The notes under the pieces were generated by a model, which saw only the letters and a list, made by a program, of their open reading frames with translations, was not told the origin of the DNA and did not search any database. From Litchfieldia sinesaloumensis (GTDB taxonomy: Bacteria > Bacillota > Bacilli > Bacillales > Bacillaceae_L), in contig NZ_LT732529.1 of assembly GCF_900156865.1 (NCBI RefSeq), positions 3,398,866 through 3,462,865 on the forward strand: 64,000 nucleotides of DNA, in the 5' to 3' direction. The translations under genes were made by a program, and so were the position numbers. Positions 91 to 55,207 of this stretch are shown one piece after another; the first letter of the stretch is position 1, and every line of letters starts with the position of its first letter.

Positions 91-230
91 AGACCTTGAT
101 GACGTACCTATATTAAATACAAAAACCACGATGAATATTAGAGTGACCCAGTAAAATGAGACAAGGAAAAAACACCCCCTGTATCGAATTTAGTTAATAA
201 CTAATCGATTTTTATGGAGGGTGTTTTTAT

Positions 231-548
231 ATGGGGAAAAAGGTACATTATCCATCAGAGATTAAAGTAAAAGCAGTAGAAATGAAAAAGAATGGATTTA
301 CAAACTCAGAAATTATGAATGAATTGGGGATAAAGAATGTCTCACAAATAAAGACATGGATGCGCTGGGATCGTAATGGTGAAAGCTATCGTTTTGAACA
401 GCCTATTGGAAAACAGTACAGTTATGGAAAAGGTCCAGGAAGCCAGGATGAACTTGAAATAGAACGCAACAAAAATAAGCATCTTCAGATGCAAATTGAA
501 ATTTTAAAAAAGTACAAAGAACTCGAAAGGAGCTGGTTCCGCAAGTAG
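231..548 (+). CDS. IS3-family transposase OrfA (helix-turn-helix)
   Basis: This 105-residue protein has an N-terminal helix-turn-helix (about residues 8-45, with NSEIMNELGIKNVSQIKTW) that binds the terminal repeats. A C-terminal coiled segment (about 75-100) is typical of OrfA multimerisation. GGAGGG lies just upstream of the ATG. Near its 3' end, bases 506-512 read A AAA AAG in the OrfA frame, the standard -1 slippage heptamer of IS3 elements. The -1 frame stays open from there into OrfB, so a fused OrfAB transposase is the likely active product. OrfA alone would act as a regulator. Confidence 0.9.
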   Translation: MGKKVHYPSEIKVKAVEMKKNGFTNSEIMNELGIKNVSQIKTWMRWDRNGESYRFEQPIGKQYSYGKGPGSQDELEIERNKNKHLQMQIEILKKYKELERSWFRK

Positions 549-556
549 TTATTGAA

Positions 557-1393
557 TTGGTAGAGGAGTTATCAAAAAGATATAAAGTAATTGATATACT
601 CAGTGTTCTAGAAATACCAAAATCTACATTTTATCGTTGGAAAAAGAAATACATTAATCGAGGGCCAAAAAAATTAGAAAAGCTTATAATCGGCCTTTGC
701 GAAGAGACTAAATATCATTATGGACATAGAAAAATTAAAGCTCTTCTAAAACAGCGTTATAACATTAAGGTTAATCGCAAGACTGTACAAGTTATAATGC
801 AAAAGTTCAATCTTCAATGTCAGATTAAAGTAAAAAGACAGAAACATATCAATGGCGAAAGTAATATTATTGTGGACAACATTCTTAACCGGAACTTTAA
901 GGCAGAAAGACCAAATGAAAAGTGGGTAACTGACATTACATACCTACCATATGGCTCTTCTATGCTTTATGTATCAACAATAATGGATTTGTATAATAAC
1001 GAGATAGTCGCTTATACGGTAAGTTCAGTACAAGATACGAATTTTGTATTGAGTACATTGAGAGAGGCCATAAAAAAGCGAAGACCTAAAAAAGTTCTAT
1101 TGCACAGTGATCAAGGATCAGTATATACATCCTATGCATATCAAAATTTCGCAAAAGAAAAAGGCATTATCACAAGCATGTCCCGTAAAGGAAACTGCCA
1201 TGATAACGCCGTAATTGAATCCTTTCACTCCTCGCTAAAGTCGGAAGGATTCAAAGACCATAGAAGATCTTCTATCACTAATATTAAAGTAATTGAGATT
1301 GTGAATCAATATATGTATTACTATAACGAAAAACGAATACAGGCAAAATTAAACTACCTGGCTCCAATTGAATATGGACGCCAGGTAGCATAG
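557..1393 (+). CDS. IS3-family transposase OrfB (DDE integrase core)
   Basis: This is the catalytic half of the transposase. An HTH_21-like segment (about residues 40-95) precedes an rve integrase domain. The DDE triad is visible: D126 in VTDITY, D185 in HSDQGS and E221 in NAVIESF, with the 35-residue D-E spacing of the IS3 family. The listed TTG start has no strong ribosome site. The frame is open upstream to the slippage site at 506-512, so it is more likely made as an OrfAB fusion by -1 frameshifting than translated independently. No internal stop or deletion is visible, so the element could still be active. Confidence 0.9.
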   Translation: MVEELSKRYKVIDILSVLEIPKSTFYRWKKKYINRGPKKLEKLIIGLCEETKYHYGHRKIKALLKQRYNIKVNRKTVQVIMQKFNLQCQIKVKRQKHINGESNIIVDNILNRNFKAERPNEKWVTDITYLPYGSSMLYVSTIMDLYNNEIVAYTVSSVQDTNFVLSTLREAIKKRRPKKVLLHSDQGSVYTSYAYQNFAKEKGIITSMSRKGNCHDNAVIESFHSSLKSEGFKDHRRSSITNIKVIEIVNQYMYYYNEKRIQAKLNYLAPIEYGRQVA

Positions 1394-1462
1394 GTGTTTT
1401 TTCTAATTCCCATTTTGGCGGGTCAGTTCACACCCTTGGTCTCTAAGCTAGCTTTCTTTCTA

Positions 1463-1846
1463 TTACTTTTGAAACAATTCAATCCATTCTCCATCCGGAC
1501 CGGTGAAGAAGATGTATCTTGATCCGCTTGGAAGAGTCGTGATGCTTTCATCAATAAACGTAACACCATGCTCTTTTACGTTCGCAATTTCTTCTTCAAT
1601 ATTTTCGACTGTGAATGCGATGTGGTGGACTTTCCCTTCGGTTGGAAGATTCGGATTGTATCCAGAAATCAACTCGATTACGGTTTCGTCAGAATGACTG
1701 AAGCCCAAGAAGGCTAGCTTTAAATTGGGGTCAACATGTCCCTGTCTTTCTAACAATTCTAGGCCTAAAACGCGCGTATAAAACTCAATCGATGCATCTA
1801 TGTCTTTCACTTGAATTCCAACATGTTCTAATTTTTTAAGCGGCAT
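1463..1846 (-). CDS. VOC-family (glyoxalase-like) metalloenzyme
   Basis: This 127-residue single-domain protein belongs to the vicinal-oxygen-chelate superfamily. Two beta-alpha-beta-beta-beta modules carry candidate metal ligands H8 (EHVGI), E59 (VIEL), H75 (HHIAF) and E123 (WIEL). The start is the ATG at 1846, preceded by AGGAGAG at proper spacing; a longer upstream frame has no ribosome site. It overlaps the 3' end of the permease gene by 11 bp, so it is the last gene of the SAM-riboswitch operon. Family members include glyoxalase I, epimerases and dioxygenases; the sequence does not settle which. Linkage suggests it acts on the imported compound or a product of it. Confidence 0.85.
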   Translation of the reverse strand: MPLKKLEHVGIQVKDIDASIEFYTRVLGLELLERQGHVDPNLKLAFLGFSHSDETVIELISGYNPNLPTEGKVHHIAFTVENIEEEIANVKEHGVTFIDESITTLPSGSRYIFFTGPDGEWIELFQK

Positions 1847-2858
1847 GTTTTTGCTCTCTCCTTTTTCGAATAACCTTTGGTCGATATTTAACTCCAATAT
1901 ATGTCACAGCAAGAGCCAAGACAAGCACGGACCCTTTTACGATTTCAAATGCATAGTATGGTAGATTTAGCATCGTTAGCCCATTTAAAAGTACACCAAT
2001 TAACGCTGCACCAAAGAATGTACCCAGTGCATTTGGTTTGCCTGCACCAAGAACGGAAAAGCCAACAAACACAGCAGCAACAGCTTCCATCAATAACGAA
2101 GCACCAGCATCAATTTGCCCTGAGCCGACGCGGGCTGCAAATAAAATTCCAGCCATCGACGCAAATACACCAGAAACTGTATAGGCAATCAACTTCACCT
2201 TATTTGTATTAATACCTGACAAACGTGCTGCCTCTGCATTACCGCCTGTCATATATAAAATCCGGCCCCATCTCGTATGGTTCAGGATTACATAAGCAAG
2301 GAGGACGAAGAATAGCATAATCCAAACAGGTACGGGTAATCCTAGCATTTCTCCTTGCCCAATCCATAGAAACGCAGAACTGAATTCACCTGGGGCGTTT
2401 CCTCCACTTGTTAGCGGCATATTGTTGTAGATGGAGTACCCTTCCGTATACGTCCGGTGAAGCCCTGAGACGATATACATCATTCCAAGTGTCGCTAGTA
2501 AATCTGGTATCCCTATTTTCACGATTAATAGTGTATTGACTAGCCCGACCGCAATTCCCACTACTAATGGTAAAAGTAGTACAACCCATAGCGGCAGCTC
2601 ATACCAGACCATTAAAGACGATGTAATGACGACTGACAAAGACATTGTCGATCCAACTGATAAATCGAATCCATCAACAACAAGGGTGAAGGTAACCCCT
2701 AACGCCAACAGAGTTACAATCGAAATCGACCTTAATATATCTGATAAATTTCCATATGAGAAAAATGCACTATTAACAAAACTAAAATAGATTAAGATAA
2801 AGCCCATTAATAAAACTGCCCCGTATTTAAACAGGAAGCTGATGATATTCCCTTTCAT
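1836..2858 (-). CDS. Ribose-type ABC transporter permease
   Basis: This is a membrane subunit of a carbohydrate-type importer (BPD_transp_2 / RbsC family), 340 residues with about nine to ten hydrophobic segments. It has the family motif around GDFDLSVGS (here DGFDLSVGS) and a conserved GGN-AA-LSGI loop that contacts the ATPase. The start was set at the ATG at 2858, 7 bp after AGGAAG, because the longer frame begins inside the ATPase gene without a ribosome site. It overlaps the upstream ATPase gene by about 30 bp and the downstream VOC gene by 11 bp, indicating translational coupling. Substrate is not deducible from the permease. Confidence 0.9.
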   Translation of the reverse strand: MKGNIISFLFKYGAVLLMGFILIYFSFVNSAFFSYGNLSDILRSISIVTLLALGVTFTLVVDGFDLSVGSTMSLSVVITSSLMVWYELPLWVVLLLPLVVGIAVGLVNTLLIVKIGIPDLLATLGMMYIVSGLHRTYTEGYSIYNNMPLTSGGNAPGEFSSAFLWIGQGEMLGLPVPVWIMLFFVLLAYVILNHTRWGRILYMTGGNAEAARLSGINTNKVKLIAYTVSGVFASMAGILFAARVGSGQIDAGASLLMEAVAAVFVGFSVLGAGKPNALGTFFGAALIGVLLNGLTMLNLPYYAFEIVKGSVLVLALAVTYIGVKYRPKVIRKRREQKHAA

Positions 2859-4359
2859 GAACGTCTTCCTTTCCACCGCTAGCATACAAGAGGATCTTAT
2901 CCTGTGTTGCCTCTTCTCGTGAAAGTTCTTTCACGATTTCACCGTCATACATAACAAGAATGCGGTCCGATATCCTGATGATTTCATCAATCTCACAGGA
3001 GAAATAGAGGATGCCCTTTCCCTCGTCAGCAAGGGAGTGGATGAGCTTAAAAATATCCTGTTTCGCTCCAACATCTACCCCTTTTGTCGGCTCATCAAAT
3101 AGGTACAGACTCGCATTGCGAGAAACCCATTTACCAATCGCAACCTTCTGCTGATTCCCTCCACTTAAATGCTCGGCCAGCGTTTCGGTGTTATCTGCTT
3201 TTATACCAAGCAACTCAATGATTGATTTGGCGTGACTTTTTTCACCTTTCCGATTCATAAATAAAAGTGGCGAGAATTTTTTCAGGTTTGCAAAGGATAG
3301 ATTTGTAGAGATTGACTCATGAATGAATAAGCCTTCCTTGCGACGCTCTTCAGAAATAAGCGCTAAACCTGCTTCAATCGCCTGTTGAGAATGGGTAAAC
3401 TTTTTTGCATTCCCTTTTACTTTCACTTCACCCTGTTCGTGAGGACGAAGGCCAAATAATGTCTTCGCAAGCTCTGTTTTTCCAGCACCCACTAAACCAA
3501 CTACTCCAACGATTTCTCCTTCAGAAACAGTAAACGATATATCTTTAAGTTTCTCTCCGTCTTCAAGACCGTTCACCTCTAAAAGAAGGTCCCCAACCAC
3601 AGCTTTTTGTTTCACAGATTGTTCGGTGTAGGAGTTACCAAGCATCGTTTCAACAACCGTTTTCTGAGTAACCTCTTTTGTAGACAATGTAGTAATGGTC
3701 TTGCCGTCTCGCATAATGGTTAACCGATCACAGATTTCAAATACTTCCGGTAAGCGGTGTGAGATGAAAATACACCCCACTCCCTTTTCCTTCAACGTTT
3801 CCACAATTTCAAACAGATGCTTCGTTTCTTCAATCGATAAAGGCGCCGTCGGTTCGTCGAATATAATGACCTTTGCTTCATGCGCAAGGGCCCTTGCAAT
3901 TAAGACTAATTGCTTTTCTGCAAGTGATAACTCCAATGCCTGCTTCGTCATTGGTATATCGGTTACATTCAAAAGTTTTAAAATCGAGGCTGCTTTTTCA
4001 CGCAGCTTTCGTTTATTGATAAACAAGCGTTTTTCAGTTGAAAAGGTATCGAGTAATATATTTTCAGCCACGGTCAATTGGGGCACAATCACTGTGTCTA
4101 CTTCTTGATAGACGCAATAAATACCGTGGTTTTTGGCATCTCTTGGAGAACGAATAGCGATGGTTTTCCCTTCAAGAGTGATGTCACCCTCGCTATACTC
4201 GTAAGCACCCGATAAAATTTTAATTAATGTACTTTTTCCAGCGCCATTTGCTCCAAGCAAGGCATGCACTTCACCCTTATCTAGCTCAAAGGATGCCTTT
4301 TCAAGCGCAACCACATTGCCAAAGCTTTTTGTCATTTCCTTCATTTCTAGTAAAGGCAT
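2827..4359 (-). CDS. Ribose-type ABC transporter ATPase (two NBDs)
   Basis: This 510-residue ATPase has the tandem nucleotide-binding layout of RbsA/MglA. The first domain has Walker A GANGAGKST (residues 36-44) and Walker B IIFDEPTAPL. The second has a degenerate Walker A (VGLVGAGKTEL), signature LSGGNQQKV and LYLFDEPTKGV. It energises uptake by the permease encoded next. AAAGGAGGGTG precedes the ATG, and the gene follows the binding protein after 46 bp. Tandem-NBD carbohydrate ATPases serve ribose, galactose, xylose, AI-2 and similar compounds, so the class points to a sugar-like substrate. The SAM riboswitch upstream points to sulfur or methionine salvage. Confidence 0.92.
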   Translation of the reverse strand: MPLLEMKEMTKSFGNVVALEKASFELDKGEVHALLGANGAGKSTLIKILSGAYEYSEGDITLEGKTIAIRSPRDAKNHGIYCVYQEVDTVIVPQLTVAENILLDTFSTEKRLFINKRKLREKAASILKLLNVTDIPMTKQALELSLAEKQLVLIARALAHEAKVIIFDEPTAPLSIEETKHLFEIVETLKEKGVGCIFISHRLPEVFEICDRLTIMRDGKTITTLSTKEVTQKTVVETMLGNSYTEQSVKQKAVVGDLLLEVNGLEDGEKLKDISFTVSEGEIVGVVGLVGAGKTELAKTLFGLRPHEQGEVKVKGNAKKFTHSQQAIEAGLALISEERRKEGLFIHESISTNLSFANLKKFSPLLFMNRKGEKSHAKSIIELLGIKADNTETLAEHLSGGNQQKVAIGKWVSRNASLYLFDEPTKGVDVGAKQDIFKLIHSLADEGKGILYFSCEIDEIIRISDRILVMYDGEIVKELSREEATQDKILLYASGGKEDVHEREYHQLPV

Positions 4360-4405
4360 TTACACACCCTCCTTTACAGAAGGCCTATAAGACCCTCTTT
4401 TTTAT

Positions 4406-5479
4406 CTAGTTCGCTTCAAGTTCTTTCAACCCATCTGTGTAACCTTGTTCGCTCTTACCCCAGCCTTCAATATACTGGTCAAGCTCAGCTGTTGTAATTT
4501 GTTCTGCTGGTAAAGCATCTTTCGTCACAAATACTGGCTCAAGTTTTACACGTTCTGGTGTTTCATCACCGTTTAGTTTCTGGTATGCATAACGAACCTG
4601 AATGCGTCCGATATCTTTTGGATCAACCGCTGCAGATGCAACCCATGGGCTGTTTTCTGCTTGGATCATTTGTAAGTCTTCATCACTCATGTCGATTCCA
4701 TAAACCTTAATATCTGTACGTCCTGCTTGTTGGATTGCACGTACTGCACCTTTTGCAAATTCATCCCATGCTGCCCAAACTGCTGTAATCTGGCCTTCCT
4801 CTGGATATTGCTTGAGTAGAGCCTCCATTTGTGCTTGTGTATCAAGTGCTGTGTTCGCAGTTGCTGCACCAAAGGTTGCGATTTCTTTAATACCCTCGTT
4901 GTTATCAAGGAACTCTTGGTAGGCAATTTGGCGTCTTTCCATCGGTGCAAAACCTGCCACCCAGATTTTAACGATATTTGCCTCACCACCAGCCTCTTCT
5001 GCTAATTTTTCAAGTGTCATTTGTGCCATCTGCTGGTCACCTTGTTCAAGTACCGTAACTCCATCTACTTCTACTTCTGCATCAAAAACGACTACTGGAA
5101 TTCCTTTATCTACTGCTTTTTGAACCGAGCTTTGTAGAGATTCCTTTGTACCATGGTCAATTAAAATAGCGTCAAATCCTTGGTTTACCGCAGCATCAAC
5201 GTTTGAGGCCATTTTTGCTAGGTCTCCGTCAGATGTGAAAACCGTTGTTTCTCCCGCAAACTTTTTCACCTGCTCTTCCACACCGTCAATATACTGTGCT
5301 GAGAACGTACCTAGGTTTTGCTGCATGATTAGAGCTACCTTTTTATTCGCTAATGGATGATCGGAGTTCTTTACTTCTGTACTATCCGTTTTCGTTGTTT
5401 CCTCCGCTACTTTCGGCTGACAGCCCACTAGGACTGCGATAATGAGTAAAGCTGTAAATACTAATTTTGCTAGTTTCAT
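4406..5479 (-). CDS. Sugar-type ABC transporter binding lipoprotein
   Basis: This is the 357-residue extracellular receptor of the importer. A lipoprotein signal peptide ends in the lipobox LVGC, so C20 would be lipidated after signal peptidase II cleavage. The mature part has the type I periplasmic-binding fold of RbsB/LsrB proteins (VALIMQQNLGTFSAQY, later AVNQGFDAILIDHG and VWAAWDEFAKGAVRAI). It is the first gene of the operon, about 95 bp after the riboswitch terminator, with GGGAGAG before the ATG. The ligand is unknown. Methylthioribose or an AI-2-like furanone would fit both the fold and the SAM control, but that is inference. Confidence 0.9.
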   Translation of the reverse strand: MKLAKLVFTALLIIAVLVGCQPKVAEETTKTDSTEVKNSDHPLANKKVALIMQQNLGTFSAQYIDGVEEQVKKFAGETTVFTSDGDLAKMASNVDAAVNQGFDAILIDHGTKESLQSSVQKAVDKGIPVVVFDAEVEVDGVTVLEQGDQQMAQMTLEKLAEEAGGEANIVKIWVAGFAPMERRQIAYQEFLDNNEGIKEIATFGAATANTALDTQAQMEALLKQYPEEGQITAVWAAWDEFAKGAVRAIQQAGRTDIKVYGIDMSDEDLQMIQAENSPWVASAAVDPKDIGRIQVRYAYQKLNGDETPERVKLEPVFVTKDALPAEQITTAELDQYIEGWGKSEQGYTDGLKELEAN

Positions 5480-5573
5480 TGTTTTCTCTCCCTTTTTTGT
5501 ATGTATTCTTATTTTTCACATGCGCTTACTGAGTTTAAAAGCCATCACACTCCCGTTACCTGAGGCTTTTTTT

Positions 5574-5800
5574 TTAAAAAAAGTAAAAGCCTCTTTCTCA
5601 ATCAGAAAGAGGCTTGAAGCATACAAAAGTCTTCGCACCTCTTATCTACCAGAAAGGAAATCCTTTCTGCTGGAATTAGCACCGTGCCTTACGGGTTGAT
5701 TACCCGGCGAAAAAAATCGCCCCATTTCACAATGGTATTACGGTCGGTTGCTGGGCGTCATCGGGCCAAATCCCTCAGCCTACTCTTGATAAGAGAAGAT
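5574..5800 (-). promoter_or_regulatory. SAM-I (S-box) riboswitch with terminator
   Basis: Read on the minus strand, 5795-5639 carries the S-box core: a P1 strand CTCTTATC, then AAGAGTAGGCTGAGGGA, TTGGCCCGATGACGCCCAGCAACC, and the closing P1 strand GATAAGAG. It is followed by an intrinsic terminator with a 12-bp stem (5587-5598 with 5604-5615) and a U-rich tract to 5574. The arrangement is the usual transcription-attenuation type, with the gene on when SAM is low. It controls the binding protein-ATPase-permease-VOC operon directly downstream. Confidence 0.93.
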
Positions 5801-5889
5801 ACAGCAAACTATTCAATTAGCCTTCGCACATCTGTCGGAGGCTACTATTCAATCTAGGTTGAATAGATTCAATTACTTACTTGACGAGA

Positions 5890-5918
5890 ATCATATCACG
5901 CCTAAAAACAAAATTCAA
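5890..5918 (-). promoter_or_regulatory. Sigma-A promoter of the SAM-riboswitch operon
   Basis: On the minus strand a -35 TTGAAT (5918-5913) and a -10 TATGAT (5895-5890) are separated by exactly 17 bp. The site lies about 90 bp upstream of the S-box aptamer, as expected for its transcript. Confidence 0.75.
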
Positions 5919-5958
5919 TATTTTTATTATAAAAAATATTTTAATAGTTAAATTACTA

Positions 5959-7551: not shown

Positions 7552-7580
7552 ATCATACACCAACTTTTGGTAGATGTCAA
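7552..7580 (-). promoter_or_regulatory. Sigma-A promoter of the CarD-like gene
   Basis: Minus-strand -35 TTGACA (7580-7575) and -10 TATGAT (7557-7552) have 17 bp between them. The -35 box overlaps operator copy 2. Confidence 0.75.
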
Positions 7581-7590
7581 CTTAGTTGAC
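7576..7590. promoter_or_regulatory. MarR-type operator, copy 2
   Basis: GTCAACTTAGTTGAC is a perfect 7-1-7 palindrome, the same sequence as copy 1 read on the other strand. It overlaps the -35 boxes of both divergent promoters. Confidence 0.78.
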
Positions 7591-7614
7591 AATTAACTTT
7601 CCCTTATGTATAGT
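7586..7614 (+). promoter_or_regulatory. Sigma-A promoter of the MarR gene
   Basis: A perfect -35 TTGACA (7586-7591), a 17-bp spacer and -10 TATAGT (7609-7614). The -35 box lies in operator copy 2, indicating autorepression. Confidence 0.75.
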
Positions 7615-7645
7615 TATACCGATTAAAAACACGGAAGTGAGATTT

Positions 7646-45151: not shown

Positions 45152-45597
45152 TTATCACCGCTCCGATGTTAATTAAGTACACCTTGGCGTATTTGCGCCC
45201 AGATTTAGGACCACAGGAAGTGGGTCTTAAAGACGTTGCCACAGGATGTGGCGTTTTTAGTCTTTGTTCTTAATGTCGAAAAGCCTCCTCTAAAAATCTG
45301 TGGCATCCGCCGGGCTTAACTTTATTCAGTAGTCTTAGGTCATCAAAACAATACCTTATACATTTATCCTTTAGAATAATGATGAAATTGTCTTTTTTTG
45401 AATAAAGTTATTTTCATATTGTAAAGCTTAAATGAAAGATACCCTCATAATCAACATTATCTTTGGTAAACATGAGATTAATGGCATTTATTCTGGTTTT
45501 ATGATATATTCATCAATTATAGTACCGTTCAAAAAGAAACGAAAGAAACGCCTTTCTGATACTTTTTGAATGCTAGTAAAGGCTAACGAAAGAGGTT
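45152..45597. other. Intergenic stretch upstream of glnS, 446 bp
   Basis: It contains a structured repeat (45200-45300) and an AT-rich tract to the glnS start. I searched by eye for T-box features (AGGGTGGNACCGCG) and found none. No gene is seen. Confidence 0.55.
45200..45300. repeat. Structured element with paired CCACAGGAnGTGG hairpins
   Basis: CCACAGGAAGTGG (45211-45223) and CCACAGGATGTGG (45239-45251) are near-identical hairpins 28 bp apart. They are enclosed by AAAGAC/GTCTTT and by CAGATTTAGGA / TCCTCTAAAAATCTG inverted pieces. The compact nested fold suggests a mobile palindromic repeat or a structured RNA. Confidence 0.55.
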
Positions 45598-55024: not shown

Positions 55025-55046
55025 AAAGACAATCGAATAAAAGGTT

Positions 55047-55207
55047 TTCTAGGGTTCCGTAGCATTTGCTAGTCTGGTCCGAGAGAAAACTCATAGCTAT
55101 AGAGTATGTTCAATAGTTCGGTGAACCTACCAAACTTGCTATGCCACGGAGGGACAAAAGCCTGGGAGATTATACATTGTTATAATCTCTTAGGCTTTTC
55201 TTTTTTA
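55047..55207 (+). promoter_or_regulatory. Guanidine-I (ykkC) riboswitch with terminator
   Basis: The conserved words of the ykkC class occur in order: CTAGGGTTCCG, CTGGTCCGAGAG, then ACGGAGGGACAAAAGCCTGGGAGA. An intrinsic terminator follows (about 55158-55207: AAGCCT-GGGAGATTATA paired with TATAATCTC-T-TAGGCTT, then TTTCTTTTTT). Guanidine binding would prevent the terminator and switch on the SMR genes downstream. Confidence 0.93.

Follow-up and report, generated by a model that had tools for sequence, protein, structure and literature searches.

The subject of this analysis is a four-gene operon on the minus strand of a 64,000-nucleotide stretch of the Litchfieldia sinesaloumensis genome (contig NZ_LT732529.1, positions 3,398,866 to 3,462,865; hereafter the window), which follows a SAM-I, or S-box, riboswitch (SAM, S-adenosylmethionine) and which, judging from sequence and structural models, very probably encodes an S-box-controlled importer predicted to transport 5-methylthioribose (MTR). 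The first gene encodes a binding lipoprotein of 357 amino acids, a member of the Peripla_BP_4 family with the lipobox LVGC recognized by eye, and it is followed by the genes for a 510-amino-acid ATPase with two ATP-binding cassette (ABC) stretches, a permease, and a VOC-fold protein (Table 1). Counted from its ATG the VOC protein has 127 amino acids; the listed open reading frame (ORF) of 144 amino acids begins at TTG. The genes are tightly packed, with a 46-nucleotide gap after the binding-protein gene, a 32-nucleotide overlap of ATPase and permease genes (for a permease start at 2858), and an 11-nucleotide overlap of permease and VOC genes, and by eye each of the four starts is preceded by a sequence resembling a ribosome site. 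The importer subunits are of the CUT2 type. A preliminary description made from the sequence alone had given this same arrangement of a lipoprotein, a tandem ATPase, a permease and a VOC-family gene that overlap or are closely spaced. The closest relatives of the binding protein, at 94-96% identity and in the same operon, are found in Fredinandcohnia onubensis and the ‘Bacillus’ strains HNG and REN16.

The leader contains a SAM-I aptamer that passes the Rfam gathering score of 44.4 across the full length of the model (positions 1-108), and a 12-pair terminator with a T tail (0.5 in shuffled sequences). An alternative fold is available in segment 5655-5600 (-16.8 kcal/mol), in which the 5' arm of the terminator can pair with the 3' strand of P1 and the bases after it, so that the leader has the expression platform of a SAM-I riboswitch, a terminator with a competing antiterminator that uses P1. 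This alternative pairing is the usual S-box switch. The riboswitch, one of 17 S-boxes in the source genome, cannot seriously be put down to chance. The full aptamer with terminator of the preliminary description is thus borne out and its S-box control supported, the latter also by the S-boxes found before relatives' transporters. Its promoter with 17-bp spacing fares less well: the promoter-like site is there, but the shuffled stretch yields a mean of 1.3 such sites, and taken alone the match is no evidence, with chance a serious explanation for it.

Table 1. Positions in the window of the operon's genes and leader elements.
Feature	Start	End	Strand	Basis or remark
Sigma-70/A-type promoter-like site, TTGAAT-17-TATGAT	5890	5918	-	weak alone, 1.3 expected by chance
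SAM-I (S-box) riboswitch aptamer	5639	5795	-	RF00162, 77.2 bits, E 2.2e-16
Three-hairpin insertion in aptamer P3; first hairpin with GUGA, GNRA-type loop	5693	5735	-	ends read off alignment
Intrinsic terminator, alternative to antiterminator using P1 3' strand	5587	5615	-	computed pairing
mtrB-like substrate-binding lipoprotein, predicted 5-methylthioribose binder	4406	5479	-	ORF, family match, PDB and fold matches
mtrA-like ATPase, two ABC domains, CUT2 type	2827	4359	-	ORF, family and NCBIfam models
mtrC-like permease (BPD_transp_2)	1836	2858	-	ORF open to 2885; ribosome site favors 2858
VOC-fold protein with glyoxalase-I-like metal ligands	1463	1846	-	ORF, family models, alignment, predicted structure

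The kinship of the binding protein points to MTR as the substrate. A sequence search of the PDB is led by 5ulb_A (E = 3.3e-65) and 4ry8_A (2.2e-63), and the third entry (8.4e-26) lies some 37 orders of magnitude behind. When the AlphaFold model of the binding protein (mean predicted local distance difference test score, pLDDT, 89.8) is searched with Foldseek, three 4ry8 chains come first (E = 2.0e-30, TM score by target 0.92-0.94) and 5ulb next (3.0e-30). The title of the 4ry8 entry is ‘5-methylthioribose transporter solute binding protein TLET_1677’. Across the folded portion of the chain this Thermotoga lettingae protein is the best structural match, at 36-37% identity; it comes from another phylum, and the likeness rests on the entry title, the sequence alignment and the fold.

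Relatives of the operon tie it to the mtn genes of methionine salvage. Among 155 named relatives of the binding protein, 80 loci were kept and their flanks fetched, some of them short, and tblastn at more than 60 bits finds an mtn gene in the flank of 32. In 26 of these (L049, L050, L052-L073, L075, L076) mtnK-mtnA is followed, on one strand, by the transporter with its binding-protein gene, and six others (L086, L087, L090, L108, L110, L113) have a different mtn gene in the flank; more distant relatives of the binding protein, in Priestia megaterium (49%) and Klebsiella (39%), are likewise clustered with mtnK and mtnA. We also surveyed 199 genomes of the order, counting the binding protein at 1e-50 and mtnK above its curated cut-off. 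The binding protein occurs at 65 places (32-100% identity, four places with an in-frame stop included) in 64 genomes, and all 64 carry mtnK, against 37 of the 135 genomes that lack it (Fisher 4.7e-26). The association persists at genus level (33/33 vs 14/64, P 3.9e-15) and when one genome is drawn per genus, where the worst of 500 draws gives P 1.2e-9. Places with at least 45% identity lie within 10 kb of mtnK in 23 of 34 cases, and those below 45% in 13 of 31. The four in-frame stops in the binding-protein match belong to one genus (G059, G097, G177, G202) and may reflect decay of the importer there. Orthologous operons and co-occurrence with mtn genes had been proposed as a check from the outset, and both were found; luxS, proposed alongside, is present in 192 of the 199 genomes and was dropped as a discriminator because at this frequency it has no power.

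The source genome itself holds genes of the pathway that such an importer would feed. The preliminary description saw neither mtnK nor mtnA, which is true of the window alone, and suggested that salvage might begin here in another way. Both genes are in fact present in the same genome, about 2.9 Mb from the transporter operon by contig coordinates: mtnK scores 534.9 bits, and around it mtnA (462.5 of 279), mtnW (716 of 513.6), mtnX (350.3 of 303.2) and mtnB (208.8 of 137.05) all exceed their NCBIfam cut-offs. With these five genes in the genome, there is no call to assume a new opening step. Three more genes near mtnK occupy what we take to be the Bacillus positions of mtnU, mtnE and mtnD, names that rest on position and similarity only: an amidohydrolase gene scoring 169.1 against a cut-off of 249, a transaminase gene of subfamily PRK08068 (699.5 of 494), and a 183-amino-acid ORF with no family at 1e-40. 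Gene order in Priestia is like this presumed mtn order, and in the source genome an S-box lies at the mtnK side and another at the mtnW side of the salvage cluster.

S-boxes also precede the transporters of many relatives. A model built from the 17 S-boxes of the source genome (R1) places one upstream on the transporter strand at 36/36 loci L041-L076 and at 4/4 Aneurinibacillus loci, and the Rfam S-box is present at L037, L042, L046, L049, L086 and L166. In the order sample, 11 binding-protein genes with at least 45% identity have no mtnK within 10 kb on their contig. An S-box precedes ten of them at no more than 1.5 kb, and the remaining one begins 195 bases from a contig end. The operon thus has the marks of the MtrABC-type importer, being under S-box control (as in Bacillus, where others have metboxes), having a binding protein nearest to an MTR-titled structure, and co-occurring with mtn genes, which are unlinked to it in the source genome but present there. 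We consider MTR the most likely substrate, clearly ahead among SAM-derived sulfur sugars on the strength of these alignments and models. The sulfur- or SAM-derived sugar proposed in the preliminary description is in this way supported by the kinship to 4RY8, the mtn linkage and the co-occurrence with mtnK. The order also holds another group of importers (L037-L040, L234, L235), with binding proteins 38-42% identical, and these have S-boxes too.

Several observations weigh against this assignment. R1 finds no S-box in the fetched flank of the other 40 of the 80 loci (36 Paenibacillus, one Gordonibacillus and three metagenome bins), some of these flanks being short, and the Rfam S-box is absent at L165 and at all six Paenibacillus loci tested; S-box control of the importer is therefore not universal. 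The tblastn search finds no mtn gene in the flank of 48 of the 80 loci, the source locus among them and some flanks again short. The binding protein is missing at 1e-50 from 37 of the 101 genomes of the order that carry mtnK, which means that MTR salvage does not need the importer. Finally, the same gene context would be expected if the importer served mainly 5-deoxyribose, or several 5-modified riboses with MTR among them, which MtnK and MtnA would phosphorylate and isomerize; PMC12632272 reports that E. coli mtnK and mtnA, beside a putative transporter gene, act on both MTR and 5-deoxyribose. We regard this alternative as unlikely, as the nearest structure carries an MTR title, the linked clusters include mtnW, mtnX, mtnB and mtnD, which form the route to methionine, and S-box control would suit a need for methionine better than a need for carbon.

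The chance that an ordinary RbsABC-type ribose importer has come under an S-box by accident appears very small. Our operon shares with RbsABC the CUT2 family, fold and subunit plan, and the RbsA, RbsB and RbsC models do match, but every subunit falls far under the curated NCBIfam cut-off (RbsA 454.5 of 745, RbsB 70.3 of 337, RbsC 211.1 of 398), Foldseek entries titled ribose-binding start only at 1.3e-20, about ten orders of magnitude weaker than the leading ones, and in the order sample mtnK accompanies the binding protein without exception. Most ribose-contact residues are also changed: of 14 positions that we take to be the ribose contacts of E. coli RbsB, the alignment, on which these counts depend, has D89, R141 and D215 kept in 33/33 family members, F15 in 27/33, and the other ten, including R90, N190 and Q235, in 0/33. 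Least probable of all is an Lsr-like importer of autoinducer 2 (AI-2) or 4,5-dihydroxy-2,3-pentanedione (DPD) linked to LuxS, for although LsrACDB is of the same CUT2 family, its models match and the source genome has luxS, the scores are far under cut-off (LsrA 399.6 of 586, LsrB 27.5 of 384, LsrC 128.9 of 388 bits), the operon has one permease gene instead of two and, by eye, no lsrK-like ORF or other lsr gene, and the near-universal luxS is uninformative. Ribose and AI-2 were accordingly rejected as substrates in view of cut-offs, fold ranks and co-occurrence, and the DPD that the preliminary description had entertained is not supported either.

The riboswitch, the gene order, the kinship to the MTR-titled structure, the mtn linkage and co-occurrence and the salvage genes, all computed here, suggest how an MTR importer would operate. 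When SAM is plentiful, it would bind the aptamer, P1 would form, the terminator would fold, and transcription would end before the binding-protein gene. When SAM is low, the 3' strand of P1 would instead enter the antiterminator and the four genes would be transcribed. The lipoprotein could then capture MTR presumably released by other cells, the permease and double ATPase would import it, and MtnK and MtnA, followed by MtnW, MtnX, MtnB and the last steps, would convert it to methionine, with the distant salvage genes acting under S-boxes of their own.

A system of this kind has precedent, and an S-box-controlled MTR importer is already predicted in print. PMC3228920, which named the transporter mtrACB in 2011, credits Rodionov et al. 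2004 with its first identification, in Bacillus cereus, as a probable MTR transporter; it reports an S-box for the transporter in that species and metboxes in gammaproteobacteria, and describes it as uncharacterized at the time. Methionine salvage is the subject of a review (PMC6302742), and for B. methanolicus PMC4342826 lists SAM elements ahead of mtnK and of mtnWXBD. Like mtrACB as described in PMC3228920, our operon has a single gene each for binding protein, ATPase and permease, an upstream S-box as in Bacillus, and co-occurrence with mtn genes; unlike it, our operon lies far from mtnKA, runs in the order binding protein-ATPase-permease, and ends in a VOC gene, and no mtrY-like ORF was noticed in it, although no search was aimed at mtrY. 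What this work adds is a structure-backed call of the substrate, a separate operon with a VOC gene, and a riboswitch module that appears specific to salvage; the VOC gene and this module look less usual for an importer of this kind. Many ‘sugar ABC transporter’ annotations in Bacillales thereby gain a likely substrate, MTR scavenging would join the SAM-controlled economy of methionine, and one species may feed on the MTR that another releases.

The S-box of the operon resembles one other leader in its own genome far more than the rest. It is 83% identical to the mtnK leader, and the other 15 leaders reach at most 59%. Although the transporter leader has the complete RF00162 aptamer and terminator, its P3 differs from the family in a conserved three-hairpin insertion, 43 nucleotides long in this leader, which the mtnK leader shares. 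The insertion comprises 14 base pairs, and when 37 leaders (35 of them distinct) are compared, 99.6% of the cells hold standard pairs and 42 cells are changed on both sides, against a shuffle mean of 7.9 and at most 8 in slid controls; further pair types show no excess (15 vs 14.6 in shuffles), and in one leader (L067) the third hairpin is missing or misaligned. These leaders had been selected for a following mtnK or transporter gene and for long shared P3 arms, and so the covariation set alone shows no specificity.

A model was built from these salvage leaders (R2), which P3 insertions of other kinds would escape. On 27 loci R2 gives at least 124.6 bits where the insertion is present and at most 81.2 where it is not, with one 133-nucleotide intermediate at 96.3. 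In the 199 genomes, R2 at E 1e-18 matches 83 places in 74 genomes, while the S-boxes of these genomes number at least 1778, a lower bound as scoring took in up to 18 candidates per genome. For most of the 83 places (68), mtnK follows on the same strand at a distance of up to 1 kb; five precede mtnW, three an MTR-type transporter (the source operon included), three a fragment similar to the beginning of mtnA (in two cases backed by a Pfam IF-2B match, in the third by 31% identity only), and two metE, and one (G041:C7) points off a contig end. Altogether 79 of the 83 front salvage genes or their remnants. A single place, of 106 nucleotides, is without the insertion; the other 82 are 128-191 nucleotides long, and those near 100 bits may hold the insertion in part. 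Conversely, 68 of the 103 mtnK genes in the order sample have a leader with the P3 insertion and 35 do not, and nine of ten lone transporters with an S-box have a plain leader of 106-110 nucleotides, the tenth being that of the source genome, so the insertion marks mtnK leaders first. A class-wide sample has R2 matches in 30 of 299 genomes (39 places, five of them short and near 95 bits), and the leader of metK (L017) has a P3 insertion of a different kind.

Taken together, these sequence comparisons suggest that the covarying P3 insertion marks the S-boxes of salvage genes. Our literature search, which left out most subscription papers, found no description of it; the accessible part of PMC7657543 has extra covarying pairs extending P3 in Rfam's alignment and mentions no such insertion, nor is a P3 insertion of this kind mentioned in the accessible part of PMC8250186. 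It is a speculative and rather improbable idea that the insertion serves as a second sensory or docking module, through which salvage S-boxes would respond to something besides SAM, for instance MTR, 5'-methylthioadenosine (MTA) or a protein, or that it retunes the SAM threshold and so separates the salvage genes from the rest of the regulon. A salvage-specific P3 module would nevertheless be a test case for gene-specific tuning domains within one riboswitch class. Where a P3-type S-box is followed by a short ORF similar to the beginning of mtnA (L237, L238, L226), it is perhaps a leader left behind after mtnKA was lost or moved. The one that points off its contig (L230, G041:C7, 193-357) has a thioredoxin-domain gene upstream. 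In that genome the end of a different contig carries the start of a binding-protein gene (G041:C16:195); if this S-box and this gene form a pair, as they may, no lone transporter would be left without an S-box in the count.

The role of the VOC gene is less clear. Its product has the H/E/H/E metal ligands of the glyoxalase type, with H8, E58, H74/H75 and E123 invariant in 18/18 sequences, at positions presumed from the E. coli GloA ligands. It falls under the NCBIfam cut-offs for glyoxalase I (TIGR00068: 66.7 of 120) and methylmalonyl-CoA epimerase (TIGR03081: 56.6 of 114.95), the source genome has a separate gene above cut-off for the latter (154.7 bits, C3:1953696), and the predicted structure is nearest to epimerases and BH1468. 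Among the loci examined, the VOC gene is in the transporter operon only in Fredinandcohnia-type genomes (5 of the 80 loci), and the enzyme may play a minor accessory role, for example in clearing a reactive carbonyl by-product. It is conceivable, if somewhat doubtful, that the gene is no passenger and encodes a dedicated enzyme of methionine salvage, acting for example on a 2-oxo or aldehyde form of an MTR product. Within the genus, six of nine genomes have both VOC and transporter and three have neither; in the order sample, VOC orthologues (counted at 1e-20) occur in 48 of the 199 genomes, of which 41 have mtnK, against 60 of 151 without an orthologue (Fisher 1.4e-8), and the difference holds at genus level (19/23 vs 28/74, P 1.6e-4) and in draws of a single genome from each genus (median P 8e-4, worst P 0.015). 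One orthologue (L153, 132-1358) also adjoins an MtnU-like amidohydrolase gene. However, the other 13 of 14 VOC neighborhoods have no binding-protein, permease or mtn gene by tblastn at 1e-8, and in none of the 14 was a binding-protein or permease gene of the importer kind found (tblastn, with ORFs read in six). The VOC gene is missing from the flank of 75 of the 80 transporter loci, seven genomes with an orthologue lack mtnK, indicating that VOC can exist without the pathway, and counting by genus removes the clustering on the tree only partly. Methylmalonyl-CoA epimerase, tried as a control gene, was dropped because its presence in 176 of 199 genomes leaves it no power, and so we treat the VOC-mtnK co-occurrence as a lead and not a result.

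Beyond the VOC gene, and separating it from an opp-like permease gene, sits an insertion element in two tandem copies (window 139-1424 and L020 5580-6865; identical over 1286 bases); it encodes an rve-type transposase and we take it to be IS3-like. The idea that the copy at the window start had shortened the operon is not supported, since in the two other genomes whose downstream ORFs were read (L042 (= L032) and L045 (= L036)) the genes after VOC are unrelated to the operon, one having a regulator there and the other the source genome's opp-like permeases. Elsewhere, the window contains a Guanidine-I riboswitch at 55038-55170 (78.5 bits) and a Bacillaceae-1 RNA at 45210-45276. In the relative L042, a Bacillaceae-1 RNA (7565-7631) lies directly upstream of the transporter's S-box.

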